From assembly GCA_963971405.1 (NCBI GenBank), contig OZ020487.1, forward strand, positions 40,273,039-40,337,038: 64,000 bases of DNA, written 5' to 3'. A program made the translations under genes and the position numbers. The notes below the pieces were generated by a model that was given only the letters and a program-made list of their open reading frames with translations, ran no database searches and was not told the DNA's origin. This document shows, in pieces, positions 5,835 through 42,946 of this stretch (positions are counted from its first letter, which is position 1; each line of letters begins with the position of its first letter). Source of the DNA: Psococerastis gibbosa (Eukaryota; Arthropoda; Insecta; Psocodea; Psocidae).

Positions 5835-8800
5835 TTAAATAGCTTCCTTGCGACCATATTCTTCTTGAAAAGCGTAGTGCAAATCCTTGCAGTCCCTCTC
5901 AGATATTTTCAACCATCCTGTTTGCTTGATATGGTACACTAAAACAAATTAAAGAACATTTCCAACGAACGCCTCAATGGATGGAAAAATCTGCCTGGAA
6001 ACTTGCATATTATGCAAACTAATTTATTATGTTTAATACTATTGGCAAGCTCTCTTTTACAATAAACTTTTCTCAAGAGAAACGTGTGGGCTTTGGCGTA
6101 AGTATCATACTTGTAATTTTGTACTTGTATCGAAATTGCATGAACTAGCCCCTAAACTTCCTTAAAAATTGGTACGTTATAAAGTAAGTAAGACAAGAAT
6201 TTAACGGAGTGAACCACTAGACACACATTATGTTTCAAATTAAATTTAATTGGAAATGGTGACGGGGGGGACCTTAATTAACTTTAAATAAATGTTGATT
6301 TTACCTCGGATAATACCGCCAGAGTAAGCATCACGATGCGTGGCATGGTAAATGGCGCGTTGGGCCAAGTCGTAGGCTTCATTGTCGTTCAAATCCCACT
6401 TGTAGCCCGAGTCAAGAACGCCAAATGCGTAGACAGAACCACTACCTACAGAGAACACGTTACCATCCACTCGGGTCCCATCATCACAGACGAAATAAAG
6501 CCCCGGTCCCTGAAAATTAAGACAAAATGAATCATTATTAGCTGCCGCCTCGCGGTTGTGAATTATAAGACTCAGCTGTCGGCTCCCGTTTTGAACCATT
6601 TAATATCGTTTTCTTGTTAAGATTTAATCAGTTACCTACATTTTGCTACTACAGTAAATGCTTAGATTTTTATTATGTATTAAATATAGAACAAATATAG
6701 AACAATTTAAATACAATAATTGTAAAGCCCCACATGAAGACCTATAACAATTTACCCTACTCTAAAACTAAAGAAAAAAGAAAAAAAATCAATTAGACTT
6801 AATTTAACTTATTAAACTACACTTACATATTAATAACAGATCTCTCGTAAACACATAACAGTCTAGTCCACTATTTCAAATAAAGATTCCACCTCTTCCC
6901 GTCTCATCAGCCATTCCCGGACGAATTTGGAAAATTTATTTATTGACAGCGACCCAGGACAAATATTAAGTTAAATAATTTTGGTGCTATATATTGGTAG
7001 GATTTGGTAAAATTTGCTATGTATGCCCTTGGTACTACAAGGTGCTCAATTCTTCTAGTATTTGCTGGTCTGGGTCTCTGTACCATGCCCCCACTGATAG
7101 AGTAAAAAATTCGCAATGTCTTGTATAAGAACAAGTGCCGCAGCGGGAATAAACCGAGAGACGCAAAGAGAGGGAATGATGGCCAAGTTCTAGGTTTTTT
7201 GACTATTGTTCTAATAAGGTATTTTTGGGTAACTACAAGTGAATTTAAATTTGTAAAAAAGGTCCCACCCCACACTTGGATACCATACGCTAACCGAGAT
7301 TCACAAAGTGAGTGGTATAGTTGGATTAAAATTTTTTGAGGGCAGACCGTGCGGAGGTAAAAAAGTTGTCTTAAAAAATTTCGACATTTTCCGTTTATCG
7401 ATTTTAAGTGGCTGCTCCATTTCATATCACTGTCGAAGTGGACGCCAAGGTATTTCGTCGTTTGTGCTTTAGTGATAGCTGGGCATTGACAATTTGGATT
7501 TTGTAAGTCGCAATTATACGCATGGCATCTCACTTCGAGGGGCTCATCTATACTTCCTGTTCTTAGATTGTATGGCAGAAAACAGGTTTTACTAACATTA
7601 ATTGTAAGGCCATGGATTTGGAACCAAGTGTTAAGATGTTGTAAATCCTCAGTCATAAACTTTTGTATCTCATTCCAGTCTCTTGCAGAGTAGCAGAGTG
7701 CCGTGTCATCAGCGAAGCTGGTCAAAGTACCATGTAGCCGCAAGTTGCATAGTTGATTAGTGTATAAAATGAATAATAATGGGCCTAAGATTGAGCCTTG
7801 TGGTACAGAACATAGTTGTTCCAAAGCGTCACTATCTACAAACCCAACTGTTCCACTTTTTTGAATTTGCAAACGTACTCTCTGAGTCCTCCCGATCAGA
7901 TAGCTCTTGAACCACTCCCACGCTATTCCTCTTACCCCTGCATTCCATAAAATGTCTAGGAGCAAATTGTGTTCGACAGAATCAAAGGCACGGCTTATAT
8001 CTAAGAACAAGCTGGCTGTTTTACGGCCTTTATTTAGAGAATCGTATATGGGTCGGGTAAATTCTATTAACGCTAAATCTGTTCCTTTACCTGCCCTAAA
8101 CCCAAATTGATTTGAACTTATCCAATTATGTTTCGTTAAAAAGTTGTTCAAGCGAGCTGCCATAAGTTTTTCTATGACTATACTTGTTACATTGAGTAAA
8201 CTTATAGGACGATATGACTTTGCAGAGCGGCGATCCCCTTTCTTATGCAATGGTATAACTATTGCTTCTTTCATTTTATAAGGAAATATTCCTTGTGAAA
8301 AACTGAGATTTATGATATGTGTAAGATAGGTAGTAATATGAGCCACAACATTTTTTAAGCAGCCTGTAGATAGACCATCAGGACCAGCGGAGTTTTTATT
8401 TTTTAGTCCAGAAATAACTGTCATTACTTCATCGTGGGTTACAGGCGATAAAAAAATAGACTGTTGTGTAGACTTTGAGTCCCACCCTGACATAGTGTGT
8501 TGGTTTAACGGTGGTTTTACTAACTGCTCCTTTAATTGCAATGGTAGATTCGTAAACAGCCAGTTTCTTACGCTATTATAAGTTATTTGGTACCATCTTA
8601 TAAGCTTATCTATAATTCCCCTCCCATAAGTCCACTCTGAATACTCTAATTTATAGAAGGTCCCAATTAGTGGTATTTTGAGTGTGACACCCAGCCAAGC
8701 CGTTAGGATATGCGGAATGGGCATATTGAGCAAGTTCTAGTGATTTTTTTTTAGCCATTTCTTTAAATGAAGTTGGAAGCTGTTGTTCGGATACGTTTTT

Positions 8801-11800: not shown

Positions 11801-12363
11801 TAAATACTAATCTTCGGTTGCATTTTGATTCTATACGCCTAACATTCAATATTACAAAAGCAATGAATACGATACCTATGTATTGGCCACCAGTAGCACG
11901 AGAATCGACGGCCAGTATAACACCATTTTGAAATTTGAAACCAAGCGTGGTAGTGCCGTGTTCAAAATGAATCTTTAAACCATCCTTCTTGAAATTGTCT
12001 AGCGCTGCCGCAGGCTAAAAAACGAAACAGGTTGATAGTAGGATGGCACACGACTCTAATAAATTGTTGCTCTGTTCCCGTCACTGAGATGGAATGCAAC
12101 AGCATTACTACTGTCTTGTTCGTCCCCCATACAATAAAGCAAATTAATTAAGAATATACAAGATATGTCTGACTATGACAGAGCATAAAATTATAGACGT
12201 TACAATTCGCTAATAGTAACAAAACCAAACTTACATTTGAATAAGGTGGGGCAGCTAAACTGCACTGCTTCGTGAAATTATTGACAAAAGTGCCATCATA
12301 TTCACAAGAATCAGAGAATTTATTAGAAAAGCTCGGTAAACCCGCTACAGATTCCAACGCCAT
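5835..12363 (-). CDS. Prosbeta5: Proteasome subunit beta type-5 (chymotrypsin-like catalytic subunit)
   Basis: Complete five-exon gene: 12363-12235, 12014-11876, 9484-9243, 6509-6305, 5938-5835, giving 272 aa with consistent phases and canonical donors/acceptors. It encodes the 20S beta-5 subunit, which supplies chymotrypsin-like peptidase activity. The propeptide ends at Gly63; cleavage in HGTTTLGF exposes catalytic Thr64 (mature Thr1). Asp80 (VDSRAT) and Lys96 (SQTMKKI) correspond to mature Asp17 and Lys33. The [20 protein letters not shown] and [15 protein letters not shown] motifs are typical. Length fits the family (about 260-280 aa). The last exon is too short for simple ORF detection and was found from the acceptor TTTTAG before [12 protein letters not shown]. 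Introns are loaded with repeats: intron 2 has a MITE, a LINE tail, a foldback and repeat A; intron 3 has a LINE ORF and a 76-bp tandem array. No damage to the coding sequence is visible. Confidence 0.95.
6862..8760 (-). mobile_element. Non-LTR retrotransposon (LINE) ORF2, 5'-truncated, in proteasome beta-5 intron 3
   Basis: A continuous 597-codon frame (8733-6940) covers a full reverse transcriptase domain: [84 protein letters not shown], the FADDTAL catalytic box, then the thumb ([17 protein letters not shown]). The overall type is jockey/CR1-like. No endonuclease domain precedes it, so the copy is 5'-truncated. At about 6950 the frame closes, but a neighbouring frame continues [26 protein letters not shown] to a stop near 6862, which suggests a single frameshift. 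Otherwise the ORF is open, so insertion was fairly recent. It has the same orientation as the host gene. Confidence 0.9.
8888..9187. repeat. Tandem array, four copies of a 76-bp unit
   Basis: Unit boundaries at 8888, 8963, 9039 and 9115 (spacing 75, 76, 76). Each unit contains ACGTCCATATGTCAACAAAG, TATTATGACTCAATGAGCC and TTGGCCACGAGCGAGG. The last unit has a short internal deletion. The array ends 55 bp from the donor of proteasome beta-5 exon 3, inside intron 3. Confidence 0.95.
9583..9713. repeat. Foldback MITE (TTAGGCGG family), copy 4
   Basis: Starts TAAGGCGCAAAGTCCACCGA and ends with the matching TTTGCTGCGCCTTA. Arms of about 60 bp include ATTGACGTGGTAGCAGACAT on the left and its complement on the right, so the family core is within the arms here. 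Located in proteasome beta-5 intron 2. Confidence 0.85.
9735..10005 (+). mobile_element. 3' fragment of the hairpin-tailed LINE family
   Basis: Broken frames encode [20 protein letters not shown] and a CECGQ remnant, matching the C terminus of the longer copy at 25955-26942. The fragment ends with ACGTGTCC-TAGGCCC-GGACACGT, a perfect 8-bp-stem hairpin, then TTAATTAAG. 5'-truncated and frameshifted. Confidence 0.75.
10770..11043. repeat. Foldback element, about 125-bp arms
   Basis: The left half contains ACACAACCGGTTTCGGCTCA, GCCATCGTCAAGTGCAATTG and GCTAAAACAAAACCAA; the right half carries the reverse complements in mirror order with few mismatches. The spacer is only about 10-15 bp. Class unknown. 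The arms include a LINE/SINE-tail-like GGTTTCGGCTCACGCCATCG segment. Confidence 0.8.
11140..11315 (+). repeat. Dispersed repeat family A, copy 2
   Basis: Begins near GGTTCGGAATCCACTATAAT and ends AAAGCAGGCGTTAGAA. Matches 205-356 (+) and 28645-28790 (-). Lies in proteasome beta-5 intron 2. Confidence 0.75.
11400..11590 (-). mobile_element. LINE reverse transcriptase thumb fragment
   Basis: Minus-strand translation gives [20 protein letters not shown] followed by [18 protein letters not shown]. This is the LQKRAIRII...CRPLFKEL..LTV..QYIF pattern of non-LTR RT C termini. No intact ends are seen. It lies in proteasome beta-5 intron 2, antisense to nothing else. Confidence 0.6.
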
Positions 12364-12816
12364 TTTTAATATTATGATTTTATTTTTTGTTTGTCATCAA
12401 CCATAGAGAAATAATTTGTAATTTCACAAAAAAAATAAAAGCCAACTCTATATTAATTTTAAGAACATTTCTTTATAATAATAATGAATATTTATTATTA
12501 AAAATAATAAAAAAGTACTAAGGTTTTCTTTATTTACATTTTTAATAGCCCAAAGAGTAATATTGTGGATTTAGCGTGGATGCAGATTGCAGAAATGAAT
12601 CAAACACGAATCAAATGGCGACTGAAGCTAATTCCACCGCCTTTAAAATATCGCCGCCTTCTATTGAGTACGAATGACCCATCATTGTTTTTTCCATGAT
12701 TCCCACGTTAATAAATTGTTTTATTTTTAAGTTTATTGTAATATATTGTGTTCATTTAAAGTTTTATTTTATTCAGTGGTGTTGTTAAATATATTAGTGT
12801 TATTATTCGGCTCGCC
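12364..12816. promoter_or_regulatory. Head-to-head intergenic region, candidate bidirectional promoter
   Basis: Only 453 bp separate the proteasome beta-5 start codon (-) from the SWIM-YqaJ gene start codon (+). The middle (about 12560-12700) is less AT-rich and holds CGCCGCC-type motifs (ATCGCCGCCTTC, ATGGCGAC). No TATA box can be assigned with confidence. The inference of shared promoter activity rests on geometry only. Confidence 0.4.
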
Positions 12817-15735
12817 ATGTACGAAAGCACGCCCCTTCGGATCAAATTGCCTGATATATTGGCTGTGTGCAATGCGTCTGTTGGCAGTCGTAATTACACG
12901 GAAGGCGAACAGTTGTATTTGGGAAACCACGTATTGCTTTGTGGAACGGTGCCTACAGAGAGCAACGAAAGGTTTATAAAGATTTACGGGCTTGTCCAAC
13001 AGAGCTCTGCTCTCTCTTCAGAGCCTCACACCGTGAAGGGCACTATTACATATTCTGGGCAGCCCTCAAATTTTATAAGTAGCTGCAAAGCGGGTGCTGC
13101 AGGACAGTGCAAACATGTCATGGCAATATTATTGACATGCTTCAGGTTAGTAACAGTTATATTATACCATTCGTATTTTTTTTTCGCGATTGGGGAAAAT
13201 TGCACTTTTGCCAATTTCCAATTGTTAGTAGGCTAGATGATAGATAGGACTCCCATAGTAATATGTGTATCGCCGCTCTCAGTTCGTTTGGAAAATTGTG
13301 TGTGAAATGCTCAGCCTTGTATTGCAAAATTACATCCAGTCGCTCACACTGGCCTGTGACCTACAAGGTCTCACCGTATTGTCGCCTCATAAACTCATGT
13401 GCACTTGTCTTGTAGGTGTGAGTGTCCCCTATTGCTTCCATTGTAATTGCCTGTTGTTCATGCCCCCATTTAAGACAATTAAGTAGCCCATACGTGGGTT
13501 GCTGATCCTAAAACAGTCTAGTATTGAAACCTAGACCGTAGCCAGTACTTTTTTCGCATGTGTTTCGAAACTGACACCCCCCCTCCGCACGTAGAGAGCT
13601 TACACAGTTCTTATTTCATAGGCAGGTAAGCCATCACTTTATCCTTTTCTTTTCCGTTTGTTAAGGTGTAATTAATTCTTTTTCATATCCGCTCACTTAG
13701 TCTTCTGTGTGTCTCGCATATTTGGATTATGCTAAGAACAAATTATGACAATATTTTTTTATTTCACAGCTCAAAGGATATATCAAAGCTCGATAAGATT
13801 TCTAGCACTGATATGCGATGTCTGTGGAGTTCCCTCAAGAGAGAAGCAACAGAGAAGTACGCAGCCCTACCTGTGGAAACATTTTGTTGCTACAATAAAA
13901 CAAGAGCTGTAAGTAATTCAATTACAGAGCAGATTATTGGTAGATTTAAATATTATTCACTGCATATTATACAGCCGAGAACTTTAACGTAATTATCTGG
14001 GATGTTCACAATAATATGGTAACATAATAGTAGCATACAGTTTTCATAATGCTGCCGTCGCATATTCAAAGAGTTTTGATACCAATTCATACTGCCAAGC
14101 TGCAACCCTTTGTGTCAGTATTATATTGTCGAGTGAGTATCTTGCTCAGATCTTGCTTGCCTATAACTTGCCTATGCGTTTGTTAATGTAGACAAATGTG
14201 GACAAAGACTACAAATTGCTTCCTGGAAAAGGAAAAAAATGAGGGCTCACTTAACAACGTCGTGTGATCAAACATAATATTTCAATTGTCATTAATTTTT
14301 AGGCTACTGAAAAAATATACGCTAGGCTTCATTTAAATGCATTCAATGCCGAAGAGGCATACCAGAAATGCACTAAATTAGAAGGGAGTGCTCTAGCGCG
14401 GCATTACAGAGGGTTCGATAGAATTCTCGATGTGGACGTTAATGTGTTCATGGAGGAATACTTTGAATCCCCAGAGGAGTTCAAAACTATTTGCGATAAC
14501 GGACAAAACCGGAATATGAATTACCTTCATGAGGTATGTATTCAATATTTATTGAAAATGTGACCACTGAGTTTCTTCGATGTTATGAATGTAGGTTTAA
14601 GCAACTATTGCAGTAAACAATCTTTCGTGTGCCGTATCTTCAATTAATGGCTTGACAGAGTGGCAGGACATTGCCCGCTGCATATACTTGTATGACTTGC
14701 GCCAAGAACTAATAATATTCAATATGCAGTATGTATTAATTCAACCTTCGCACAACGTTTTTCTATTAATTGGAACTTCCCCCAGTACGTCATATAATTT
14801 GCGCAGACTTCACACTTCTTCACGCCCTAGGCCTTAAACTGGATACAGCCCCCGTTAGCAAAGCTAATCACGGGCCTGAAAAGAGTAACAAATAAAATAG
14901 AAGTCTTAGGGTCCTAAACCCCCCCCCCCCCCTTCAGAAATTTGTGAATTTACGCCTATGGTAACCGTCATGAATGTTACAGGTACAAATCGAAGAGCCG
15001 CTGCTATGCTGCCGTGAGTTTTACAGGAAAAATGTTCTGACTGCCATTAATTCTATAGAAGTGTGCACAAGAACGGCAATGCTTCGCAGCGAATGGATGA
15101 AGGAGCGCCGGTGGCGTATAACTGGCAGTCGCTGCCGCAGTGTTTATACTTACAAGAAGGGCAATTGGGCTGAAAAAGCCATGCTATTGGCTATGCCCAA
15201 ACCCTTCACAAGCAAAATTGTTCAACACGGCGTGGACAATGAACCCGTGGCACGGGAGTTTTATGCGCGGGAAACCGAGCAACGCGTCGTTGAGTGTGGC
15301 CTTGTCGTTGTAGAGGATCATCCCTGGATGGGATATTCTCCTGATGGGGTCATATTCAATGACCAAAATCAGCCACTTAAGCTCCTCGAAATTAAATGTC
15401 CCTGGTCGGGCAAGACACTGCCAATGCATGCTATGCTTGAGCATTTGTCCAGACGGCCAGGAGGCTATTTAAATAAAGTGGAGAATAAGGACGGGGGCGA
15501 TACTCCGAGTTGGAGTTACCTCCTTAAAAGGAATCATTCCTATTTTAGCCAAATACAACTAGGAATGTTGCTTTTAAATTTACCCGAATGTGACTTCGTG
15601 TTGTTCAATACGAAGGACAATGCGATGTCTATTGAAAATATTATTTTCGATGAAGTATTTTGCCGGGATTTAGTAGTAAGACTAAAAAGTAATTATTTCA
15701 GCCACTTACTCCATCAGTTTTGTTCGAAGGCTTAG
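12817..15735 (+). CDS. SWIM-like motif plus YqaJ-type PD-(D/E)XK nuclease
   Basis: Four exons, 12817-13145, 13770-13908, 14303-14533 and 14983-15735, all with GT/AG borders and matching phases, give 483 aa. Near residue 90 SSCKAGAAGQCKHVMAILL resembles a SWIM zinc motif (CxC...CxH), but the first Cys is Ser; C90, C98 and H100 remain. The last exon is a YqaJ/lambda-exonuclease-like domain: WRITGSRC, QHGVDNEPVAREFY (Glu320), MGYSPDGVI (Asp354) and LLEIKCPW (Glu369, Lys371), i.e. a complete PD-(D/E)XK site. The biochemical role expected of the fold is exonuclease or recombinase activity on DNA ends. An AATAAA at 15752 follows the stop. It faces a THAP-DDE transposase gene 3.8 kb away. Such proteins occur in many animals as multicopy, probably transposon-linked genes. 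Whether this copy is mobile or domesticated is not shown. The start ATG is the first in the frame. Confidence 0.85.
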
Positions 15736-16200
15736 AAAGAGCAGGGTTGCTAATAAAATAAATAATAAGTAATTGTTCGTTTATTTTTTACACTATTAAA
15801 GTTTTTTACACATATTCTAGCCCCCCTTAAACGAACGTGTGCGGGGTACCTGCTAATTCAAGCAGACAAAATTGAAATATTATATCAGACATAATCCTAA
15901 TAGTGAGTAGAGTCCCTGGGGCGTTAAAAACATGAAAACCTCGGACTGAAATTGAAAAATTTCAAATGGAATATTTAGCTAATAGTATAAACTAAAAAGT
16001 GGTACTAATTTTTTTAACTAATAATAGTAATTATAACAATAATTCAGTTAGTAAAATGAATATCAAAATTGTATGTGATATGAAATGAATTTATACATAT
16101 ACATATATTCAAATATAGAAATTAATTGGGAAAATATGGGTTTATTAAAAAAGTAAATAATTAATGTACATTAATTAATAATAAATTTATTTATTTAAAC
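15736..16200. other. No gene seen: AT-rich 3' flank of the YqaJ gene
   Basis: Very AT-rich spacer. It contains the AATAAA at 15752-15757 as a likely polyadenylation signal for the YqaJ gene and otherwise only short A/T runs. No terminal inverted repeat was recognised. Confidence 0.4.
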
Positions 16201-16204
16201 AACT

Positions 16205-16445
16205 AACATATCATAGATAGAAGAATGGAGAACAAGCAGCCGCCAAAGGAATGAAAGGATGGGCGAGAACAGGACCACCCGGAGGATGGCGGAAGCAAGG
16301 TCACAAGGAAGAAGACCCATCGGCAGGCCGAGGACAACCCTCGGGGAAAGGATTGAACAACTCGCCGAAGCAAGAGGAAAAACAATGGCCGAGCTCAAAG
16401 CAGCGTCAGACCGGGGCTAGTTCAGGAAATGGGTTCGGGTGATAA
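16205..16445 (+). mobile_element. LINE 3' coding fragment (RTE-like tail)
   Basis: One frame reads GRRPIGRPRTTLGERIEQLA then EARGKTMAELKAASDRG, a stop, and FRKWVR. This is the end-of-ORF2 pattern GRPRTTW..I..LAE.RG.T..ELK.A.DR..FR.WV found in several non-LTR elements. Short and decayed. Confidence 0.5.
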
Positions 16446-16632
16446 TTATCATAATTCAGATATTGAAAATTCCTATATTAACAAAAATAATTTAATTGGG
16501 AAAAAAAGGGAGGTTATTAAAGAAAAGTAAATAATTAATATTAAATCATTAATAATATATTTATATATTTCATATCACATAACATATCTGTACAGATCAA
16601 ATACTTTCTTCATTTAACTTTAACTTCATTTA

Positions 16633-18554
16633 CAACCCAAAGGCAGAATAGTTCGTACACCTCAAAAACTCCTGTTTTAAAAAAATAATAATAATCAACT
16701 TTATAGATATGTAGTCTTTTAAAGAATACTTGCTGTCAATCGATAGAGAACATGAGAAAGTACATCTAGCAGCAGAAACTTCAAACATAATACACATGAA
16801 CAATTCAGAATTAATATTTTGTTTCAAGAACTTGGGAGGCGTAATAGTTCGCACAGTCAAAGTGAAGTGTCTATCAGTACTGCGATACCCCTCCTTTGCT
16901 TTTTATAGCAGCGGCAATTCTTTTGAGCACTACTTACTTACTTAACGTGTCCGGGCCTAGGACACGTTGGTTCAAAACGTTGCGGCCTGGATGGCCTTGT
17001 CGTTGGCGTCCAAAAGATCCCTCTGGGACACGGCTTCTCTCAGCGTTGGACATACCAGAAGGTGTCCGTCGCTCTGGACTTGTCCGCACTCGCAAGTTGA
17101 GACCTCCGCCAGTCCCCACCTACACAAGTTCGCACGGCATCTTGTGACCCCCGTTCTTAGTCTATTCTGGCTCCGCCATATAGGGTACGACAGTTGGGCT
17201 CCGGGCGCCATTTTTTCTTGGATGTTTGGTGTTAGGTTCTTTTGAGCACTGAAGAAACAATATTACTGCACATCGCTGGTGTAATACCACACCACACATT
17301 TTGGATGGATGGATTTCAGTTCTTCCTTTGTCTTCGGGATCTTTTTGGCTACTACCTTCTTCGTGATGAGCCAAAGGTTTTCAATTGGTGACAAATCTGG
17401 GCTATTAGCTACCCATGTCGAAACCGAATCGTTGTTTTCACCAAACCACTGTCTAGCAGAATTTGTAGTGTGACAAGTGGCCCCGTCTTGCTGAAATATG
17501 AAATTGCCTTCGGGATGTAGGGCACTTATCGGCGGTAAAAGGTCACATTTCTAAATACTTAGGGTCATTGACAGGGCCTTCTACGAAGTACAGGTGACCA
17601 ACTCATTTCGAACTCAAGCATCCCCATATCATTACACTGGTCGGGAACTTGACCGTCTGTTTTATGCATTGTGGCTGATAAGCTTCAGGCTTCATCCTGA
17701 TGACTTTGGGTCCTTGATTGCCCATATGTAGAACAAACCGTTATTAATCGGACCAAATAATTGTTTCCCAGCGGTCTTTGGCCCATTTTGAAATGTTTCT
17801 AGCCCATTGGAACTTCCTTCGTGTTTGACACCTTGAAAGCGCGGTCATTTTCTTCGCTGAAAACAATTTGTAACTTATTTCTTTCATGACCCTTCAGCAA
17901 AATCTTATAGAGAAAGCTTCACTAGTAGCCTCCCACCACTTTTCAGTGATTTCCTTCAACGTTCCGCGCCTATTTCGAAGAATTAAGGTCTTCAGGTAAC
18001 TACGTTCTCTCAGAGGAATGGGAGTTTTTCGGTATGTTTTTCGTTTAGGATGGCTACTGCTTTTTTCACGGAACAGGCTGATAATTGACTGCACTGTTGA
18101 AGGTGGTAGAAGCAGCTGCTGAACAATGTTCCTCGCAGATTCGCCGGTTTGGTGAAGATATATGATCTGCTTCCTTGTCTCTTCAGAAATTGGTTTATCA
18201 CTAGGCCTTTTTGTAGATGTTATTTTTACAATATTTTACAACACTTTTCAGGTATTAAACATAAAAACAGAAGTGTACATTTTCCAATCTGCAGTAAAAT
18301 TTGGCCTTTATTTAGCCCAAAGGGGGTTCAGTAAAAGTGTGCGAACTAATATGCCTCACGAACGGATGAAGAAATTTTTTTCTGAACTCACCATTCTTAT
18401 ATTTGAAGTAAGTGTAGCGAGATATACTTTATCATGTCCTCTATCGACTGATAGCAAGTACTCTTTATAATATCAAATAATAAGATTATTATTATTATTT
18501 TTAAAAACAGGGGTTGTACATTTTTCAGGTGTGCGAACTATTCTGCCTTTGGGT
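16633..18554 (-). mobile_element. Tc3-like Tc1/mariner transposon, inactive
   Basis: The ends are CAACCCAAAGGCAGAATAGT and its complement, flanked by the expected TA duplication (16631-16632 and 18555-18556). The TIRs extend about 220 bp with a second TAGTTCGCACA-type site near 16850 and 18340, the two-site arrangement known from Tc3. The minus strand encodes a decayed transposase from about 18200 to 17230: HTH segments (EETRKQIIYLHQTGESARNI, PPSTVQSIISLFREK), KWAKDRWETIIWSD (first catalytic Asp), SVMIWGC and a C terminus LWLITKKVVAKKIPKTKEEL. Stops and frameshifts break it. The element is interrupted by a LINE tail at 16932-17236. Confidence 0.9.
16932..17236 (-). mobile_element. Retro-inserted 3' fragment of the hairpin-tailed LINE, nested in the Tc3-like element
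   Basis: Flanked by a perfect 14-bp target-site duplication TTCTTTTGAGCACT (16918-16931 and 17237-17250), the mark of target-primed reverse transcription. Read on the minus strand it ends with the ACGTGTCC / GGACACGT hairpin and a (TAAG)n tail. It encodes the CECGQVQSDGHLLVCPTL Cys/His motif seen in the 26-kb copy. 5'-truncated. Confidence 0.9.
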
Positions 18555-18556
18555 TG

Positions 18557-18870
18557 TATTTCAATAATAGGGGAAGCATTGAACACATGCAATATAAGCC
18601 ACTCTTTCGGCACCCACAAGCAGCTCCACATTCCTTTTTGCTGTTACAAAATAACATTTGTAATAAATTATCCGGAGCTGGCGATTGATTCATTGTTATT
18701 GGGATGAACGTGTTATTGAAATATTTCCATCCCCAATTTAAAATTTTTAGATCATGACCTAGCCATATTTGAGTTTGCAGGTACACTCGTTTAAGGTGCT
18801 CAAATGCTGCATCAGTTGTAGGAGGAAATGATGGCAAAAGAACACTTTTCTTTCTGGCTGTTCCAAGACC
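18557..18870 (-). pseudogene. Fragment of an uncharacterised CXC-type Cys-rich protein family
   Basis: The frame reads LGTARKKSVLLPSFPPTTDA, AFEHLKRVYLQTQIWLGHDL, WGWKYFNNTFIPITMNQSPA, PDNLLQMLFCNSKKECGAAC and GCRKSGLYCMC. The C-x-C-G-C-R-K-x-G-L-x-C pattern resembles a Tesmin/TSO1-like CXC cysteine cluster. This block order (LPPT..A..H..RVY.Q...W...GW) is one I associate with multicopy uncharacterised insect proteins. The 3' end is cut by the Tc3-like insertion at its TA site. No start or acceptor is visible upstream, so it is a fragment. A related block lies at 36060-36410. Confidence 0.55.
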
Positions 18871-19417
18871 ATAAAAAAATTAGATGTGTGCACATCTGAA
18901 TGTATTGAAAAATAACGAACAGTGATTTAGATGGCAAGTACCTTATTTTAGAAATAATTTCAAACAGGGTGTGGTCTTTTGGTTAACTACAGTATGATAA
19001 CTTGAGTAAATCACACATCCCTAAAAAAATTACGTGCCCCAAACTTCTGAAAACCCATTGCACACCAGACGTGCATCCACGGGCTGGGGAAGTTGAGTTG
19101 AAGTCTGAGGTCGAAACCCCCAGGCTAGACTAGAACAATAATACATAATCAGTCGACGCAGCGAGAGAAAAGTAAGGATTCACGGCACTGAAATACTGTT
19201 ACAATGGGGACATGTAACACTATGTGTTGATACAGCATTTCAGTGCCGTAATTCATATTCTGTCTCGTTTCAGGGGGATTTCTAAAAACCCTAGAAACTA
19301 AAACCACCCTCCGTTCAAAATGCTGACCAAATGCTCCGTATAGAGAAATTATTTCAAAATAGTGAAATATCCATTTTATTGCCTGTTTAATTACCTTTCT
19401 AATTCAGTGGTAATTGA

Positions 19418-19490
19418 ATGAATGAATGAACGACTTTATTGCAATACAAATGGCGAACAATAAGACTATAAAGACTTTTTTTCATGTTAA
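19418..19490 (-). repeat. LINE 3' tail supplying a poly(A) signal
   Basis: Minus strand: TAGTCTTATTGTTCGCC, then CAATAAAGTCGTTCATTCAT and a short tetranucleotide repeat. The same tail occurs at 34195-34282 (+) and 47640-47716 (+). The AATAAA at 19440-19435 lies about 80 nt beyond the stop of the THAP-DDE gene, on the same strand. Confidence 0.65.
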
Positions 19491-19519
19491 CCATTGAAAA
19501 GAAACATACAGATGTAATC

Positions 19520-22500
19520 CTAAAATTTATCGTCAGCAAGGAGAGGTGACGTTAAATTCACTAAGCCACAGACAACAGTGAAAGCATTATCAGCAATAGA
19601 CAGTTGTGACCATTCAAATTTTTGTGAAAAAAAGTTCATGGACTTTATGCGCGCATTAGCCCTTTCCACATGAACCCTGGCCCTGGAAATATCTCTATTG
19701 TCTAACGCCTCCTCTTTACTAAATTTAACTTTTCCGCGTAAGAAGGTAGGCCTAATTATGTCAATACCCTTATCAAAACATGGGACATCTACAAGAAACC
19801 CTTTGTCCACCATAATACAGTCATTTTTTTCCAGTATATCGAGTATCCCACTCTGAAGGAAGATGGTGCTGTCAGAAGCTCTACCCCCGTAAGCTTTGCT
19901 CAAGAAGGTAATTAAACCGCCTGGCGAAATACCAGTCATCCATTTTAGAGTGAGAGTACCTTTATAATGAGAATAAAGCTTAAGGCGACAAGGGAGACAT
20001 TTAGGCTTTTGGATCGCAACTTCCGTGCAATCTAAAACTACACGAGCCAAGGGGAAATTACGAAAGCATTTTGGTAGGTTTCGAGATATTTCCTCTCTAG
20101 AAGGCCAAGGTATTGCAGGCTTCAGCACTACGCTTAAAGCGACCACCATCTTCTTGAATTCAGACCTACAAGACGTTGGGGTCAGATTGCCAAACAGGAT
20201 GCTGAGAACTGCATAACTAATATTCAGTTTCAGCTTCATGAATGTCAAAATGACCCTGTCCTTCAAAGTAAGCCTATGAATTCGTTTGTCGACGACAATG
20301 GTTTTCACCAGGTCGACAATAAAATCAAGTATCCGGAAGGTTGGGAGACCCGTAAGGGAATTCAATTTCGCCTCTGTCTTCAACTTCCACGAGAACGGTA
20401 CATAAATATTGCCACTCGTGACTTGAACACCTTTGTCTTCTAACCCTCCCTCCATTGGAGTTTGTGCAGCATGCTCGGAACTTGTCTCTAGTAAATAAAA
20501 AAAAACTAAGATTAGTATGGAGACATGGTGTAATAAAATGTCCGCAGAACGCTATGAAATCTGCAAAAGAAAAATCTTATAAATACAATAATAATTTTAC
20601 AAAAGTATTTGACGTGATCATAATGTTTTGATCATCAAAACTATGTAAGACAGAAGTTTATAGTCCCGCCTCTCGAACGGGACCACAAACACTCTGTTAC
20701 GACAAAAACCGACCGAATGACGCGCATTACAAAACAGGAAGTTGTTTTGTCGCACCCTGTATTTAAAAATTGAGAACGGGCAAAAAACATTTTTAAACAT
20801 TTTTCTATATTCTAATGAAAACACATTTTCAAAGTTTTTATAAATATTCATTGACTGGCCCTGAATTCCGAGGCTTTCAATTTTTTTGAATTACGGCGCG
20901 CCACTTATACTCAATGTATCGAGAATGGGGGACGTGATCTAAATGTTTTAATCTTCAGAAATATGTACGCATAAGACAAAAGTGTACAGTCCCACCTCTC
21001 GAACGAGACCATAAACACTTCGCTACGACATCCACCGACCGAATGGCGCGCATTACAAAGCAGGAAGTTATGCTGCCACACCCTGTAGCTCTAAATTGAG
21101 AGCGGGCAAATTTTTTTTAAATTTCTCTATGTCCACTAACAACACATTTTCAAATTTTTTATAAATATTCATGGACTGTCCCTGGATTCCGAGGTATAAA
21201 GCTTACGGTACTCCACTACTAGAGGATTGTCGCTGTTACCCTGAAACACCCTGGTCAAGGACTTTAATACTTGTATTTCTATTTGTATTTGTATATATTG
21301 TCTATCCTCTCTTAGTTCATGTACTGTAGCTAATTCACCGGCTTTACTTCCTAACTCACTTGCGCCTGTTGGTAGACCTAAACTTTGCAAAATTGTACGA
21401 GAGTCAATAAATTAATCGTACCTTCAACTGGTGCAAACAAATTTAATAGTGCGTTGGCAGCAACCAAATCATCGGGCGTGGGATTCTGTTCAGCGATTTC
21501 TTCAATAGGCACAGAACAGGTGTGCATATGCCTTCGTGCCTTTCTTAAAATTCGTTGAGATGCCAGTTGAGCTTTCCTGGTCTTCCTTGGACTTTTTGGA
21601 TCGTGGGAGGCAACAGGCAAGTTAACTGAAGGCGCTACTCCTTTTTTTAATCTTCGGCGTTGAACGGGTCCGCCTAAAAATAAAAATAAAGAGCAAAACA
21701 TAACCAGGACGTGGACACAAAAGTATTTACCTAGAAGGGCTGTCAAACTACTACAGTGTTGGGCACAAAAGTATTTACCTAGAAGGGTTGTCAAACTACT
21801 ACCGTGTGGATCGAACTATTAAAGATCTAAAAAGTGAGAAAAATTTCAGAAGTTGTCGTAAGAACGAAAGAATGCAGCACCAAAGGCAATAGACAATCAG
21901 TGATCTGAAGTTGGAGATTCTGAATAAGCGCGCGGCGCTTCTGAGTTTCAACAACAACAATGGAAACTATCGGGTAGGTACGGAAGAAGTTCGAGAGGAT
22001 GAAGTGACTAGAAGAAGATAGTTTGGTGTATTTACTACCACTCAATACTACTTTACATACAACCACTACTAGCTAATTGAATAATACAATATACAACACA
22101 ATACTAAGTCCCTTAATTAATTATTGTAACAATGTGGATAGTTCTTTTCTGTAGTAATAGCAGGTTACCCTGCCTACTCCTGACAGAGTGACCCCATGCC
22201 ACATTACCGTAATTAATATGGGTATGTAACAAACCATGTATGCCATGAAAAGACACCAGTCGATCAAGTTTACGTAGGTAGCAGAAAAGCCACTCAAGCA
22301 AGTTCACTGCATAATACTATTAGTACGGTCCTCCGACAGTAGTTTGCAGCAATTTATTAATAGTAATGAGAACATATTGGCAATGACATTTCTAGGTGAT
22401 GAATACAAGGTCCATTATTATTAAAATACATTTTGCTTCCAAAAGTTGTTAAGTAGCCCATTGCGCACTTTTAATGCCTAATGTCATATGAGTTATACTA

Positions 22501-22957
22501 TATATAACCAGCGTCATCAAAAATAATTTTAGAACCCAAAGCAGCCCCAACAAACAGATATAAGTTAGTGTAACCATGAACATTGCACAGGATGCCAGGG
22601 AGTACGGCTGAATTGCTATAATTTCTAGGGTTATTTGGGCTCTAATAAACATTGATATTCTATTTGACATGCACAATTTAGTTAATGAATTTACTTACCA
22701 TGATTAAAAAAATCGCTTTCAGTAAAATGCTTAGAACACACCTTCATATGCACGGAAGCAGTTTTCCCCATTTTCAAAATGTGATGCCATGCCTTGTTAG
22801 CATCAATTTTCTCTTTCACCCCAAATTTATTTTCTATTACCACATTGTGGCTATTCACCTTAGGGAATTCATGGAACGAAGCCCCCGGACTATTGTAATG
22901 GGCTGAATTGCAACTAAAAACGCAACAATTAGTACAGTTTCTTTTTGTTCTAACCAT
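19520..22957 (-). CDS. THAP zinc finger plus DDE_4/HARBI-like transposase
   Basis: Four exons, 22957-22699, 21673-21422, 21377-21207 and 20487-19520, join in phase to 549 aa. Exon 1 is a THAP domain (NCCVFSCNSAHYNSPGASFH...W...VCSKHFTESDF, a C2CH zinc-binding DNA-recognition fold). Exons 2-3 encode a basic linker and a helical segment. Exon 4 has an HTH-like part (LTLKDRVILTFMKLKLNIS) and a DDE domain with Asp380 (VVLDCTEV), Asp455 (IMVDKGF) and Glu502 (HVERANARIK), so the triad is complete. This order is that of ISL2/IS5-related eukaryotic transposases (DDE_Tnp_4) with a THAP head. Intron 2 is only 44 bp. A LINE fragment sits in intron 1 and a duplicated repeat in intron 3. It may be an active transposase or a domesticated gene; the open frame after several nearby insertions favours selection or recency. 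Confidence 0.85.
20611..21195 (+). repeat. Direct duplication of a roughly 270-bp repeat in THAP-DDE intron 3
   Basis: Copies at about 20611-20875 and 20930-21195 share GTGATC..AATGTTTT, the CCTCTCGAACG segment, ACCGACCGAATG, CGCGCATTACAAA, CAGGAAGTT, CACCCTGTA and TATAAATATTCATTGACTG in the same order, with moderate divergence. The second copy ends about 12 bp from the exon 3 donor (21207). Confidence 0.8.
22110..22310 (-). mobile_element. LINE reverse transcriptase thumb fragment in THAP-DDE intron 1
   Basis: Minus-strand frame contains SFHGIHGLLHTHINYGNVAW, GHSVRSRQGNLLLLQKRTIH. This is the typical Y..FHSHI.YGI..WG......LLLQKR..RI pattern of jockey/CR1-type RT thumbs. No ends recognised. 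Confidence 0.65.
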
Positions 22958-22959
22958 TC

Positions 22960-24040
22960 TTTAATATTTACCATGGAAATTAATAATGGCGGCAATGGAG
23001 GGTCCTTCTTGGGCTAGCTACGAGTGTAATCCAACAGATGTCGCATGGCTAATTTCGATTGGCAATTGAATGATTGAAATAAAATATAAATGTAAATAAA
23101 TGGCGGCTACTACGCAGAGAGAAAGTAAAAACAAAATTTTTATTTCTTTGGTTTTGAATGATAACTATAAATGAACAGTACTAGATTTCTAATTTTTACT
23201 AACTCTTCAAAAATAGAATCAAGGGATGAACCGTAAACGCTTAGAAGTCACAACACCATAACTATAACAATCAGTATCATGGCCTGTGAAGAAACCACCG
23301 ACGTGACGCCCGATGGTAAGACTGTTAGTGTTAGCTTAATAAAATAATGCCTCGCTGTTCGCATCAATAAACTACCAACTACTCTCTGCAGTCCACAATG
23401 GCTGAGGGATAGGCAACTTGTTGGTAATTTTGTAGGCATATACTGTATTAGTAAGTTATTTATGTATTACTACTATACTTCATTTCTATAATAGTAAGAG
23501 CCGGCAAGCAGTTTGTTCGACGTACAGAGGCAAAAATACATGTGAGTGAGAATGTGCGGTGAACCGCTGCGTGCTTGACGCTCTGTAGAAGCAAGTGAAT
23601 GAAGCTATGCGTATTATCCTAAATAAACGAACCGGTCCGAGTTTACTCGAACATGCTTTCCAATTTATCAAAATTAGTAGATCGAGAAAATGAGTAATTT
23701 CATGGTAAATAATTTTCCTATGGTTAAATTTCCGATATCTCAGGGGGGGGAGGGTCCCCCTGACGTCACTGGAGGTGAGGTAAATTCAAGATAGGCCAGA
23801 CCATCATATTAACACACTGGCAGGGCACGCAATGTGTTTGAGCGTGAATTTACAATTATTTTTCAAAAAAACATTCTTTTGTACAAAACCGAATACTTTT
23901 CTGGGAAAGCAACCTGTCCGATTTCGTTACTCAATTTAACACCTAAAACATACCTGAAGGTAGAAATCATCGAAAGAAAGGTTTCTTTCGCAGAAAAATT
24001 ATTTTTTATTCATTTTTCATTAAAATTTAGTTATTTTTAT
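22960..24040. other. No gene seen
   Basis: Upstream flank of the THAP-DDE gene, including GGCGGCAATGG and ATGGCGGC motifs within 150 bp of the start, plausible promoter DNA. Beyond about 23200 there is nothing coding or repeated that I recognise. Confidence 0.3.
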
Positions 24041-37800: not shown

Positions 37801-40800
37801 TGCGGAATGTCTGTCTGCAGCCCTGTTATGGCGATTTGTGATTAACGTAATACTGGGGTTTATTCAATTCAAATGAGTGCAAAATGCGCGGGAAATTCAA
37901 ATTCATAAATTAATATTTTTTGGTGAGTTTTCAATTTTTTTTCTCCCGTAGATGTAGACACATTAATTAAAATTCTTATTATATTTCAAAATTCTACCTG
38001 TACATTTTAATATTTATTAGTACCTATACCTATTTCCTTCAATTATGAAACAATGCAACCAACCATTCTCTTGTATTCCAATAATTTATTGATTTGAATT
38101 TCCCGCGCATATTTTAACACCGTCAGGTGACACCTTACTATTGCGGTATAAAAAAATAAAGCCCGGTATATGTTAATCCCAAATTGCCATAATAGGTCCA
38201 TGCGCGCCGACTTCATATAGAATGGTAAGGCACGTGCCTTACCACTTTGGAAAGTGGTAAGGCAGTGCCTTACCACTTTTCAAAGTAATATTAGGAATTT
38301 TTGTTGCAATTTTTTCTTATTTTTTAAAGTAGCATTAAGTTCAGATAAAAATAAAATTTAATATTAAAACAAGAAATAGAATAAAGTTAATGAAAATTCA
38401 AAATTGGCGCAAATTTGCGGCCCCGACGAGAGAGTGGCTGTAACAACCAATCAGGGCACGAAATTTTAAATTGGCGGTCGCGGCCATGTTTGTAAATTTG
38501 TAAATTGTAATGTGTTTACGCTTATACATACAGTAAGTGTAGCTTATGATTGTTAAGTTCAATATTTTATTTTATTTTCCTCTCCAAACTGAATCTTTTG
38601 GTTTAATTGATATTAAGACTTCTCTTCCCTATGTTCTTCCATTGTTGTGTTCACTTTTCAACGTTCACAAACTGATAGAAAGTTCTCAAATCTAGTTCAC
38701 ACAAGAACAGGTAAGCACCAATTTACATTAACTTCTTGTTTTAATTTTATTACTCATACATTAGCCTATTGTACTGTACCTACTAATGCCGTATGTTACT
38801 TAATCCCTAATAAACTACATTGACAAAGTGAATTTCGGAATTTAAGTTAGTAGTAAGTAGCTGAATTTTCTTTGGTTGGCCTAGAACTAAACAGGTTCCG
38901 ACTTATGTATAGATTTTAGACGTGTAGGCCTACTTACCTACCTTGCAGTTACGGTCGGTCACGGCAAAAAAATATATATAGAGAATTATCATGATTAGAA
39001 AATATTGTAGAACTGCAATAAATGTACTTCGTGATATTTTTACATGACTGTCACGTACATGGTACTTTCGAATTTATGTAGTAAGGCCGACACGTGATCG
39101 TAAAAGTAGGTTTAAAAATTAATGAAATTAAAATTTGGAAGTGAAAACTGGGCAAAATGCCAAAATAATATACCTATATGGTTAATATATTTTATTTTTC
39201 CCCTTTTAAACTTACATTTTAAATTCACAAGTTTGCTTGTTTTTTGTTCTAGTGGGTCTGTAAGCATGGATATCAGAAAATTTTTCAAAGAAAAGTCTAC
39301 ACCCATGGTGACGGAACCTTCTACATCAGCAGCAACTACAATTCTCGGAAGGGCGGAATCTGCGGGGTCAGGTAGGTAATCAATTAATGGAAATGTGTCA
39401 ACATTTATTGACTGTTAAAAAAAGGGGAAATTACTACATATATGAACTATTTTTTAACGTCCAGTTTAAGGTATACATGGAAATAATATGCTTGCCATTA
39501 ATTAAATGGGAGATTTATAGGGAAGAATCAATAGTGTAGTCTAAAAAGCTGGTCGTGATATAGCAGGATAGCAGATAGCTTTAGCCAGGACCTCGTAATG
39601 ACACGTTACATACAGTTTAAAATTGTTTGGGGCTGGGTGGACCCATACCTCTGAAATCTGAACCTCCTCCGAAATATAGTCATGACTACGGCCAATCGTA
39701 GCAGTTAACCCTATTGCACAGTTATTTCTCCAGTTACAATTTTAAGCACTTTTTGGTCAAGAAGCCTCGATGAGATATGTGTTAAAAGAACATAATATAT
39801 CTGCAATATATATTTTTTTTATTCAACAGGCCCAGGAACTGCCTTAACGCAAGCTACGATTCCAAATTCTTCTTCGGGAAATAAGAATGCTGTTAAGCGA
39901 AGGGGATTCAATAAATCATGGCTTCAAACGTACCCTTGGATGGAGTATTCCCGAGGACTAGTGTTTTGCAAAATATGTAAGGAAGCTGAAAGTAATGGGC
40001 TGTTAATTTTATGTAAACTGAAGGAGGAGACTTTCACAAAAAAAGGATTCAGCTACTGGAAAAATGCTACAGCAACTTTTCGAAAGCACGAAAATAGTGG
40101 TTCGCATAGAGAAAGCGTTCTTAAAACGGGGAAAAACGTAAATGTATCCACACTTCTAAATGAGAATTTGAACAACGAGATGAGGAGTGCCCGTTCAGCG
40201 TTATTATGCCTCTTCTCTTCTTTGAGATTTCTTTGTCGGCAAGGGTTGGCCATCCGCGGCCATGAAGACGTTTCTTCAAATTTCTGGCAACTGGTCAATT
40301 TGAGAAAAGATGATTGCCCGGAAATGCAAAAGTGGTTAGGCCATAAAGCTAAAAAATACACCTGGATGTCTCACGATATTCAAAACGAGATAGTGGAAAT
40401 GTTGAGCCGCTCTGTTTTGGAGAATGTTGTACAAGGGGCAATGAATAGAGGCTATTTTAGCATTATGGTGGACGAGACTACAGACATATCAGTTCATGAG
40501 CAAGTAACGTTTTGTTTGCGAACAGTGGATGACAATATGGATATTTTTGAGGACTTCGTAGGCTTGTATGCGGCTCCGAATACCACGGCACAAACTCTTT
40601 TTGAGATAGTCAAAGACATTTTTCTTCGATTAGGGTTGCCATTTTCCAAGCTTAGGGGTCAGTGCTATGATGGGGCTTCTCAAATGCGAGGGGAATTCAA
40701 TGGATTGCAAAAACTTGTTGCTGATTTACAACCACAAGCGATGTATGTACATTGTGCCGCTCATAATCTTAATTTAGCTGTAGAAGATAGCTTAAAGCAC

Positions 40801-42946
40801 CTCCCTTGTATGAGAGACATTATGAATTTAGCCAAAGACCTAATCAATACTATCAGAGAATCACCAAAGCGTATGGAAATGTTTAAAAATATCCCAGATC
40901 CAGGTAATGCCAAACCTATCAAAACTCTACGTCCCCTATGTCCTACAAGATGGACGATGAGAGCTTCAAGTATCAACAAAATTTTAAAGCATTATGAAAA
41001 AATCGCAATTTTTTTCGAAGAGTTTTCCGAAAATGATACGTCAGACGCAGCTGCGAAGTGCTCGGGATATCTCCACCAAATGGAGTCATTTAAAACATTT
41101 TTTCATCTTTTGTTGTACAGCAAAATAATGACTCCACTTGAAGAAGTTAACGCACAAATACAATCGCCCCATATCGGCGCGGCAGAAATTAAGGCGAAGA
41201 TTGATTTTCTCATAGCCATTATGACGGCAAGGCGTGAGGAGTATAAGAAATTCTGGGATCAGTGCCTGGAGGAGACAGAAAGGATGAAGTTCGTCGGCAA
41301 TCCCGAACTCCCTAGGCAACGGCGTATTCCAAAAAAATTGGAAAGTTGTGGTGGTGCAGGACAAGGACACGAATTTACAGGAGCAGAGAATTACTTCAAG
41401 CAGATGTACATAGAGGTATGCGACACAGTTTTGATGTGCTTAAGGAGGCGCTTTGAGACATCCTCCCTTAATACTGTTGTTGCTGTGGAAGAAGAGCTTG
41501 CATCTTTTGTGGCCCAAGGCATTTCCTCGTTGGAAAATGCACAAAAGTTTTTTTGTAATGACATAGACATTGGAAGACTCTCCCTACATCTGTCAATGCT
41601 ACATGATATTTCTAAGCAACGGAAGATCTCACTCACCACGATGCGTGACGTAAGAAAATTTCTCGTAGAAGAAGGAAGTATAAAAGATCTAGTTGAGGAA
41701 GTGACAAAGAGCATTAAAATCCTCCGGACCATTCCAGTGACGACAGCAACCGCTGAACGGTCGTTCAGCTCACTTCGACGTCTGAAAACGTATCTTCGGT
41801 CCACTATGGGGCAGGCTAGGCTGAATCATCTAGCTGTCTTAAATGCGCACCAATTGGAACTAGATGCATTAGACTTAAGACCCATTGTAAATGACTTTAT
41901 AAAAAAAAATCAAGTGAGGAAAGCAACGTTCGCTTTATTTTAAATTCGTTTATAGTCTATTTACATATAGGCCTACTGTATTTGCAATGCAGCACAATTT
42001 GCAAATAATGTGTTAAGAGGATATAGCACGTAGACACGTCGTCACCACAAATTCCAACACATTTTACTTTTTGATTCCTTTTATATGAAAGATATCAAAA
42101 CCCTGTTGCTACCGTGTATGTATTATTGCTCAAGGCATAGTAGTGTAATGAAATTTTTAATTTTCGATCAATACAATAGTTTTTTATATAAAGAGAGACT
42201 CGTCAGAACTTCAGCGAATTTCTGACGAGTCTCACTTTATATAAAAAACTATAGATCTAAAATTAAAAATTTCATAACACTACGATGCCTTGAGGAATAA
42301 TACATACACGGTAGCAACAGGGTTTTGATATCTTTCATATAAAAGGAATAAAAAAATAAAATGTGTTGGAATTTGTGGTGACCACGTGTCTACGTACTAT
42401 ATCCTCTTAATGTATTTATGTATTCATTTAAAAAATGTAATCGCATTGCCTTTCAACTACAGTTACAAAATGTTACCGTATTCATATTTCATAGTCATTA
42501 AAGAAATTGAAAAATGACATGTACTTAACTACTTATACTTTGGACAATATACAGTACTGTAATGCACAGTAATTAAGCCATTGTACGTTGACTGTGTTTT
42601 TCTTAATAATTCCCGGCTATATTTAAGTTATACTATATAATATAAAGGTTTTACCGTGCCACGGTGCCTTACCACTATTTTGCACAAGTCGGCGCGCATG
42701 AATAGGTCCGCTGAAGCCCATATTAATAATTACCTGTTTTGCCATAACTTTTTGCCTTTCTGCAATAAGTATGCATCGCTGGCATTCGCAGTCGCGGTAT
42801 CTGCATTCCCTCTTATGGCCTTTCAGCCATGAGATGACTCCGTGATTTCGGCAACGAGCACACTTTGGCTTTCTGGCACCACTGTCAGTCTTTGGCCACT
42901 TCGGATAATGTTCGTCCTCCTTCATTTCAGTTATAAAATTTACCAC
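31894..42946 (-). CDS. dmrt93B: DM-domain transcription factor, Dmrt93B-like
   Basis: Two coding exons about 9.9 kb apart: 42946 (or the second ATG, 42925) to 42734, donor GTAATT; and 32844-31894, acceptor TTGTTTCAG. They join in phase 0 as ...[12 protein letters not shown]..., 380-387 aa. Exon 1 holds the DM domain [40 protein letters not shown] with all zinc ligands, which binds the DNA minor groove. Exon 2 starts with the recognition-helix tail, then [20 protein letters not shown] and PQGPIFG, a block typical of arthropod Dmrt93B. An acidic linker and a DMA motif follow ([37 protein letters not shown], about residues 175-208). The family acts in neural and sexual development. The intron contains a complete hAT element ending 33 bp below the donor, plus LINE, SINE-like and foldback repeats. 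Expression may be affected; the coding sequence is intact. Upstream noncoding exons not identified. Confidence 0.9.
32845..33895. other. Dmrt intron stretch with a LINE-like tail only
   Basis: AT-rich intron DNA. GACTTTCTAGTCTTAAGTC near 33800 followed by a TTA microsatellite resembles a LINE 3' tail. A TTA repeat also lies at 33277-33294. No exon recognised. Confidence 0.3.
33900..34282 (+). mobile_element. LINE RT palm remnant and separate LINE tail
   Basis: 33900-34035 encodes [20 protein letters not shown], the YADD catalytic box of a reverse transcriptase, then stops. 34081-34146 is a C-rich minisatellite (CCCCTTAACCTTCTC units). 34195-34282 is the GACTTTATAGTCTTATTGTT ... CAATAAAGTCG 3' tail with terminal TTTCA repeats, shared with 19418-19490 and 47640-47716. 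Confidence 0.65.
34380..34975 (+). mobile_element. LINE RT thumb and C terminus
   Basis: The frame 34385-34831 reads [49 protein letters not shown], a typical RT thumb. Translation in a shifted frame continues to about 34975 with an [10 protein letters not shown]-like end. Probably the continuation of the YADD fragment at 33900 after an internal insertion or rearrangement. Confidence 0.75.
35337..37025. mobile_element. Large foldback unit with flanking direct repeats and a captured coding fragment
   Basis: Two direct repeats (35337-35457 and 36921-37025) share TAAGCGGAAGCTTGAGCGTG and GCACCTTGTCCGG. Between them, arms of about 390-420 bp (35674-36060 and 36500-36920) are inverted copies. Landmarks are AAATTGTTTTGCCTACAAG, TATAACAATTTTCTTTTTTG, AAAGATCATC-type segments, CGCTGTTACAGCGC and ATGCTCATGAGAATCC. 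The unique centre carries coding-like sequence (next entry). No transposase. Confidence 0.75.
36060..36410 (+). pseudogene. Captured fragment of the CXC-type uncharacterised family
   Basis: Frame 1 reads [45 protein letters not shown] and then loses similarity. Another frame continues [36 protein letters not shown]. The LYGG...LD.LRY..F...V...S..L.SLPPT block precedes the RVY.Q...W region in the family represented at 18557-18870. Short, frameshifted, without splice borders; a passenger between foldback arms. Confidence 0.45.
37081..37358. repeat. Foldback MITE (TTAGGCGG family), copy 5, near-perfect hairpin
   Basis: Starts TTAGGCGGCTATTCCACTTG and ends with the complement (AAGTGGAATAGCCGGCTTA). 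Arms of about 130 bp include TTTTAAGGAGACTATTATGT and TATTATAATTTAAGTTATAA with complements. Subtype shared with 5547-5724. In the Dmrt intron. Confidence 0.9.
39266..41943 (+). CDS. hAT transposase, ZMYM1-like
   Basis: Exon 1 39266-39371 (donor GTAGGT) and exon 2 39830-41943 (acceptor TTCAACAG) join in phase to 739 aa. The start [10 protein letters not shown] includes an IxxFF motif that could be a PCNA-interacting peptide. A TTF-type zinc finger region follows ([33 protein letters not shown]). The RNaseH-like core has Asp250 (MVDETTDIS), Asp316 ([14 protein letters not shown]), [13 protein letters not shown] and, after the all-alpha insertion, Glu678 ([20 protein letters not shown]) in the C-terminal dimerisation region. 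All three catalytic residues are present, with no internal stop. The ORF lies within matched TIRs, so it may still be functional. ZMYM1-like hAT transposases of this layout are widespread in animals. Confidence 0.92.
42017..42406. repeat. Foldback MITE with TTAA flanks inside the hAT element
   Basis: Bordered by TTAA (42013-42016 and 42407-42410). The ends GAGGATATAGCACGTAGACA and its near-complement lead into arms of about 185 bp that pair with few mismatches around a GACGAGTCTC ... GAGACTCGTC centre. Located 73 bp after the hAT transposase stop. TTAA duplication suggests a piggyBac- or Kolobok-type mobiliser. Confidence 0.88.

Follow-up and report, generated by a model that had tools for sequence, protein, structure and literature searches.

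A recently active two-gene transposon of the ISL2EU kind with facing YqaJ nuclease and THAP-DDE transposase genes in Psococerastis gibbosa

Genes and features of the locus

The window, a 64,000-nucleotide stretch of the Psococerastis gibbosa genome, harbours two convergent genes, SWIM-YqaJ and THAP-DDE (Table 1). Their exon models, built from the sequence only, predict spliced products of 483 and 492 amino acids, respectively. All five introns are GT-AG, and no internal stop interrupts either frame. Pfam identifies YqaJ (E-value 1.3e-15), DDE_Tnp_4 (2e-33), HTH_Tnp_4 (2e-8) and THAP (8.6e-9) domains. These open models and domains bear out the two spliced, convergent genes that the initial annotation had placed at these positions.

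The catalytic residues E320, D354, E369 and K371 of the YqaJ domain are present, with the numbering given earlier. The D, D and E of the transposase are invariant across six aligned families, and their earlier numbers, 380, 455 and 502, are each 57 higher than in the 492-residue model, where they are D323, D398 and E445. When eight YqaJ domains of this genome are combined into a profile, it matches the PDB sequences 3syy (5.2e-28), which carries the label Exonuclease and which we take to be LHK-Exo, and 1avq (lambda exonuclease, 3.9e-18). A profile of the DDE alignment has no match among PDB sequences at an E-value of 0.01. The SWIM finger is assigned by its motif, as Pfam returns no match for the SWIM exon of the YqaJ gene. 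The finger of the window copy reads S88-x-C90-x7-C98-x-H100, where the usual pattern is CxCx7CxH, S88 taking the first position.

Table 1 Coordinates of the transposon, its genes and its nested DNA in the window
Feature	Positions	Strand	Remarks
Whole element, 10,448 bp	12617..23064	+	Common copy boundaries; ends GGCGACTGAAGC...GATTGGCA
Left AT target-site duplication	12615..12616		Flank letters
Right AT target-site duplication	23065..23066		Flank letters
Left imperfect terminal inverted repeat	12617..12631	+	Terminal T absent in the window
Right imperfect terminal inverted repeat	23049..23064	-	End comparison
SWIM-YqaJ gene, exon 1	12817..13145	+	SWIM motif, Ser88 replacing the first Cys
SWIM-YqaJ gene, exon 2	13770..13908	+	Spliced model
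SWIM-YqaJ gene, exon 3	14303..14533	+	Spliced model
SWIM-YqaJ gene, exon 4	14983..15735	+	YqaJ / lambda-exonuclease-like nuclease domain (Pfam; profile against PDB)
THAP-DDE gene, exon 1	22699..22957	-	THAP zinc finger (Pfam)
THAP-DDE gene, exon 2	21422..21673	-	Spliced model
THAP-DDE gene, exon 3	19520..20487	-	HTH_Tnp_4 and DDE_Tnp_4 (Pfam)
Tc3-like element	16633..18556	-	TA at 16631-16632 and 18557-18558; transposase pieces in separate frames
305-bp fragment within the Tc3-like element	16932..17236		Flanking 14-bp duplication TTCTTTTGAGCACT
113-aa frame with Cys-rich tail	18538..18879	-	Related to the C-terminal end of a repeated 1487-aa ORF

Elsewhere in the window, an open hAT-type frame of 715 amino acids with DUF4371 and a hAT dimerisation domain occupies positions 39796-41943, and an open reverse transcriptase frame of 598 amino acids (RVT_1), probably from a non-LTR element, occupies 6940-8736. 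The window also holds a gene with a DMRTA motif, which points to an animal host. To the left of the transposon, a proteasome-subunit gene lies on the minus strand (identified by Pfam on its later exons), with its first exon placed by eye near position 12360. The insertion lies upstream of this gene, about 213 bp before a possible plus-strand first exon of a gene to its right (MACEETTDVTPDG), and may have split a shared promoter (window 12363-12616 and 23067-23330).

Ends, target-site duplication and empty sites

The genome (409 Mb in 68 contigs) was searched for further copies with the YqaJ, DDE and end sequences, and the ends of the element were located by aligning these copies. Similarity among the fetched copies starts at window positions 12613-12616 where the left end is present and stops at 23066-23068. 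Outside about 12616-23066 the flanks are unrelated, with a few short, non-collinear repeat matches at three loci (L016, L017 and L020).

The end letters are TGGCGA at one end and TGCCAA at the other. The first bases are TGGCGAC in the other copies read, with the exception of the C21 copy; the window lacks the terminal T. The terminal repeat of the window's family is identical at 9 of 16 positions, a score that 61 of 10,103 control positions equal or exceed. In a sister family (L026/L030), whose 8.7-kb element has CT on both sides and a DDE domain 77% identical to that of the window, 12 of 16 positions are identical, and only one of 8343 control positions equals this. The initial annotation had found no terminal inverted repeats. 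Short, imperfect candidates do occur at the ends, and their degeneracy accounts for their having escaped notice. An ungapped scan of 12364-12816 against 22958-23500 gives mostly AT-rich matches, almost none with a shared 2-bp flank, and such candidates were discarded. The start codons of the THAP-DDE and YqaJ genes lie 107 bp and 200 bp inside the element ends of the window, respectively, so the ends are likely to serve as promoters as well.

An AT duplication flanks seven of the eight insertions for which both outer flanks were read. These seven comprise the six copies listed with the ends TGGCGAC...GATTGGCA (the window being counted despite its missing terminal T) and a tandem pair on C1, judged by its outer flanks. 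The C21 copy has no duplication at its flanks, and the right end of the C20 copy stands outside the count. An A before and a T after the AT are found together in one of the seven AT insertions, that of the window, in what is a small sample.

Two insertions have paralogous empty sites among the 40 of 2040 candidates that were scored. For the C12b copy, the flanks joined with a single AT match over all 200 bases in 43 of the 44 rows listed for all sites together, the best 12 at 100% identity and 361 bits. For the C3b copy, the joined flanks match once, at 99% identity, at C3:36242195. Four further joined sites have no match within the scored candidates, which at this coverage carries no weight.

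The two members of the tandem pair (L010 and L011, C1:31.929-31.950 Mb) have the same orientation, are separated by ATG only and show no substitution over 8028 aligned bases. This ATG junction may reflect a duplication of 3 bp, or the tandem may have formed by another route.

Copies, age and selection

The end searches gave 14 left and 13 right matches, of which 10 and 9, respectively, belong to known copies. The ten left ends are 100% identical, one of them across positions 2-200 only, and the nine right ends are 99-100% identical. The remaining four matches on each side are diverged and none of them pair up, so these searches reveal no ends-only derivatives. Between the nine copies aligned across the element, substitutions amount to 0-0.37%; C20 was omitted from this alignment, and the sequences of C1c, C21 and C20 are partial. 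The window differs from the C1a copy by 2 substitutions in 10,443 positions and three short deletions in C1a, and the C3a and C19 copies are free of substitutions across 10,501 aligned bases and differ in length by 1 bp. Both genes are open with all splice sites intact in five of the nine aligned copies (window, C1b, C3a, C12b and C19). The C1a and C3b copies are broken. C12b carries a later 4.8-kb insertion, and two DDE pieces that lie some 15 kb from each other on C20 suggest an insertion in that copy too.

Ser88 of the window is the outcome of one of the two substitutions that separate it from C1a. Residue 88 is Cys in all seven other copies with exon 1 aligned, and the sister family also has Cys at this position, as read from the alignment. 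With Ser88 and the absent terminal T, the window copy may be partly disabled.

The initial annotation had offered as an alternative that both genes are now host genes, that is, a domesticated pair kept for a cellular function. In its favour, the two reading frames are open and have been conserved from family to family, and the YqaJ gene starts head to head with the proteasome-subunit gene on the minus strand. Counted on the side of the transposon, pN and pS between the window and L026 are 0.136 and 0.782 for DDE and 0.211 and 0.821 for YqaJ, with silent sites at or near saturation; amino-acid-changing differences between families are thus far rarer than silent ones. Among the young copies, variable sites are equally dense in coding (17 of 2931) and non-coding (45 of 7517) positions, which leaves no signal of selection among them. 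Against domestication stand the near-identical copies in unrelated flanks, the AT duplications and the empty sites. The copies refute this reading, which we regard as highly improbable. The window element is one mobile unit that has been very recently active and is present in about ten near-identical copies.

Pairing of YqaJ and DDE_4 genes across the genome

A lambda-exonuclease-like nuclease joined to a DDE transposase has been described for KolobokE (excerpts of PMC9587614). At two loci of the present genome, Pfam identifies open frames with a Mutator-type transposase domain and a C-terminal YqaJ domain (L022:2032-4656, 875 aa; L023:2215-4479, 755 aa), and frames of 875 and 755 amino acids recur among the scored YqaJ places. 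These fusions fit the description of KolobokE, and we infer that they belong to it. Of 219 candidate YqaJ places, 150 were scored and divided into 91 non-fused and 59 KolobokE-like ones. The latter were classed by frame length and score, with a Pfam check for L022 and L023 alone, and three short frames (226, 234 and 235 aa) entered this class by profile span and score. On the transposase side, 124 of 146 candidate DDE places were scored, and 122 entered the linkage count after omission of two second pieces of listed copies.

A DDE_4 transposase lies within 10 kb of 79 of the 91 non-fused YqaJ places, a count that may miss some partners as the DDE list covers relatives of the window transposase only. 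The two genes are convergent in 78 of these 79 cases. Shifting the positions 500 times lowers the mean linkage to 0.49 and never yields more than 3, with a length of 45 Mb assumed for some contigs. None of the 59 KolobokE-like places has a DDE_4 within 10 kb. Convergent pairing of YqaJ and DDE_4 is therefore general in this genome, and the genome-wide search for the two genes within 10 kb of each other, suggested in the initial annotation, favours a single transposon.

Another diverged facing pair lies at L024 (C21:3331500-3341499), with a DDE domain 33% identical to that of the window. In small trees of the DDE and YqaJ domains, the window, L026 and L028 are split from the rest with support of 100 in both. 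Inside this trio, the DDE tree groups the window with L026 (support 92) and the YqaJ tree groups L026 with L028 (56). Other families and the KolobokE-like nucleases are weakly placed, with support of 36-49.

These data also bear on whether two independent elements came to lie side by side by chance. YqaJ does occur with no DDE_4 match nearby, fused to another transposase in L022 and L023 and unlinked in 12 of the 91 non-fused places, some of whose partners may have been missed. However, the linkage far exceeds the shifted control, and the copies fetched across both genes have both of them inside the same ends. For the window's family, chance adjacency is refuted, and we give it practically no weight. 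The single unit of roughly 10 kb and ISL2EU-like character that had been proposed at the outset is thus upheld by common boundaries, unrelated flanks, AT duplications and empty sites.

Nested DNA inside the element

The Tc3-like element is found in all ten copies, with nine full-length matches and the interrupted C12b copy (40 of 1405 candidates scored in this search). It must therefore have been inserted before the copies spread, which reverses the earlier view that a finished unit was later split by it. The standalone Tc3-like copies among the matches listed lack the 305 bp at 16932-17236, and the flanking duplication suggests that this fragment is probably a retro-insertion. Thus, an ISL2EU-like element contains a Tc3-like element that in turn contains a probable retro-fragment, and all three have spread as one.

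The sister locus L026 has no match to the Tc3-like stretch or to the Cys-rich 113-residue frame, which among the loci compared is found only in the window's family. This frame was considered as a third gene and dropped, as most of its listed matches (91 of 101) are located elsewhere than in the ten copies; it is probably foreign cargo. A related Cys-rich C-terminus is present in an open frame of 1487 amino acids at L035:444-4907, and at least 17 places among the matches listed have a frame of this length. The 1487-residue frame of L035 has no Pfam match at an E-value of 1 and might encode the principal protein of a mobile element not yet described.

Relationship to known transposons

Excerpts of PMC4482050 describe ISL2EU as a group of the PHIS / Harbinger-like superfamily with THAP-DDE and YqaJ genes. 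Its members average 4840 bp in length, have GG at their ends and are flanked by AT duplications. Its terminal inverted repeats measure 6-259 bp and usually start with GG, and a target context of A|AT|T was inferred there from conserved flanks. The two-gene layout is also given in excerpts of PMC9179366. The initial annotation had associated THAP domains and YqaJ-type second proteins with such elements, in agreement with the layout in PMC4482050. The window element shares with ISL2EU a transposase gene with THAP, HTH and DDE domains (Pfam), a YqaJ nuclease gene, the AT duplication and an end with GG at or close to its start. It differs in being 10.45 kb long, about twice the mean of about 4.84 kb given in that source, in its degenerate terminal repeat preceded by T, and in the flanking A and T, which are not conserved around insertions of the window's family. 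It also carries a Tc3-like element nested within it, along with one further fragment.

Two other groups resemble it in part. KolobokE also encodes a lambda-exonuclease-like nuclease together with a DDE transposase, but there the two form one fused protein with another transposase type, whereas the window has separate convergent genes and DDE_Tnp_4. PIF/Harbinger elements have a similar DDE transposase and two genes (excerpts of PMC4482050). However, their second gene is of the Myb/SANT type and their duplication is TWA, in contrast to YqaJ and AT in the window. No Myb/SANT match is found in the nine frames scanned by Pfam. The stretch from 12617 to 23064 is almost certainly a two-gene cut-and-paste transposon of the ISL2EU kind. 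It represents a new family of an already published transposon layout.

Possible role of the nuclease

DDE transposases act by cut-and-paste, and relatives of lambda exonuclease resect DNA ends. Judging from the protein families, the THAP finger and HTH would bind the element ends, the DDE domain would cut and join at AT, and the lambda-exonuclease-like nuclease would resect broken DNA ends. If the nuclease resects the gap left by excision, repair would be steered to a homologous template and the donor copy would be restored, thereby allowing the element to gain copies. Resection of the donor gap is the weakest step of this scheme, and it is the role that we tentatively prefer, at less than even odds; the near-certainty expressed above concerns the identity of the element and does not extend to this role.

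The nuclease may instead act elsewhere, by trimming the element's own ends at excision or by destroying competing DNA, and there is a reasonable though less than even chance of this. The YqaJ domain matches lambda exonuclease, whose relatives act on DNA ends generally. Moreover, this genome has another type of transposase fused to such a nuclease, an arrangement that would fit a step within the transposition complex. Nothing speaks directly against it, but the nuclease is a separate protein in the window's family.

The preferred role in donor-gap resection can be extended to a more speculative proposal, which we consider rather doubtful. Here YqaJ would be a dedicated second enzyme that resects the gap for repair from the sister copy, and a portable module that two different transposase superfamilies share in one genome and have exchanged, ISL2EU having it as a separate facing gene and KolobokE as a C-terminal fusion. 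A limited literature search (titles and starts of abstracts) found no published experiment on the ISL2EU YqaJ nuclease, and one for YqaJ with Mutator found nothing that looks related.

Foreign DNA nested in a 10-kb unit does not prevent its spread, as the family described here shows. As near-identical copies with open genes and defined ends are available, together with empty sites, the role of the nuclease in a two-enzyme eukaryotic transposon is open to experiment.
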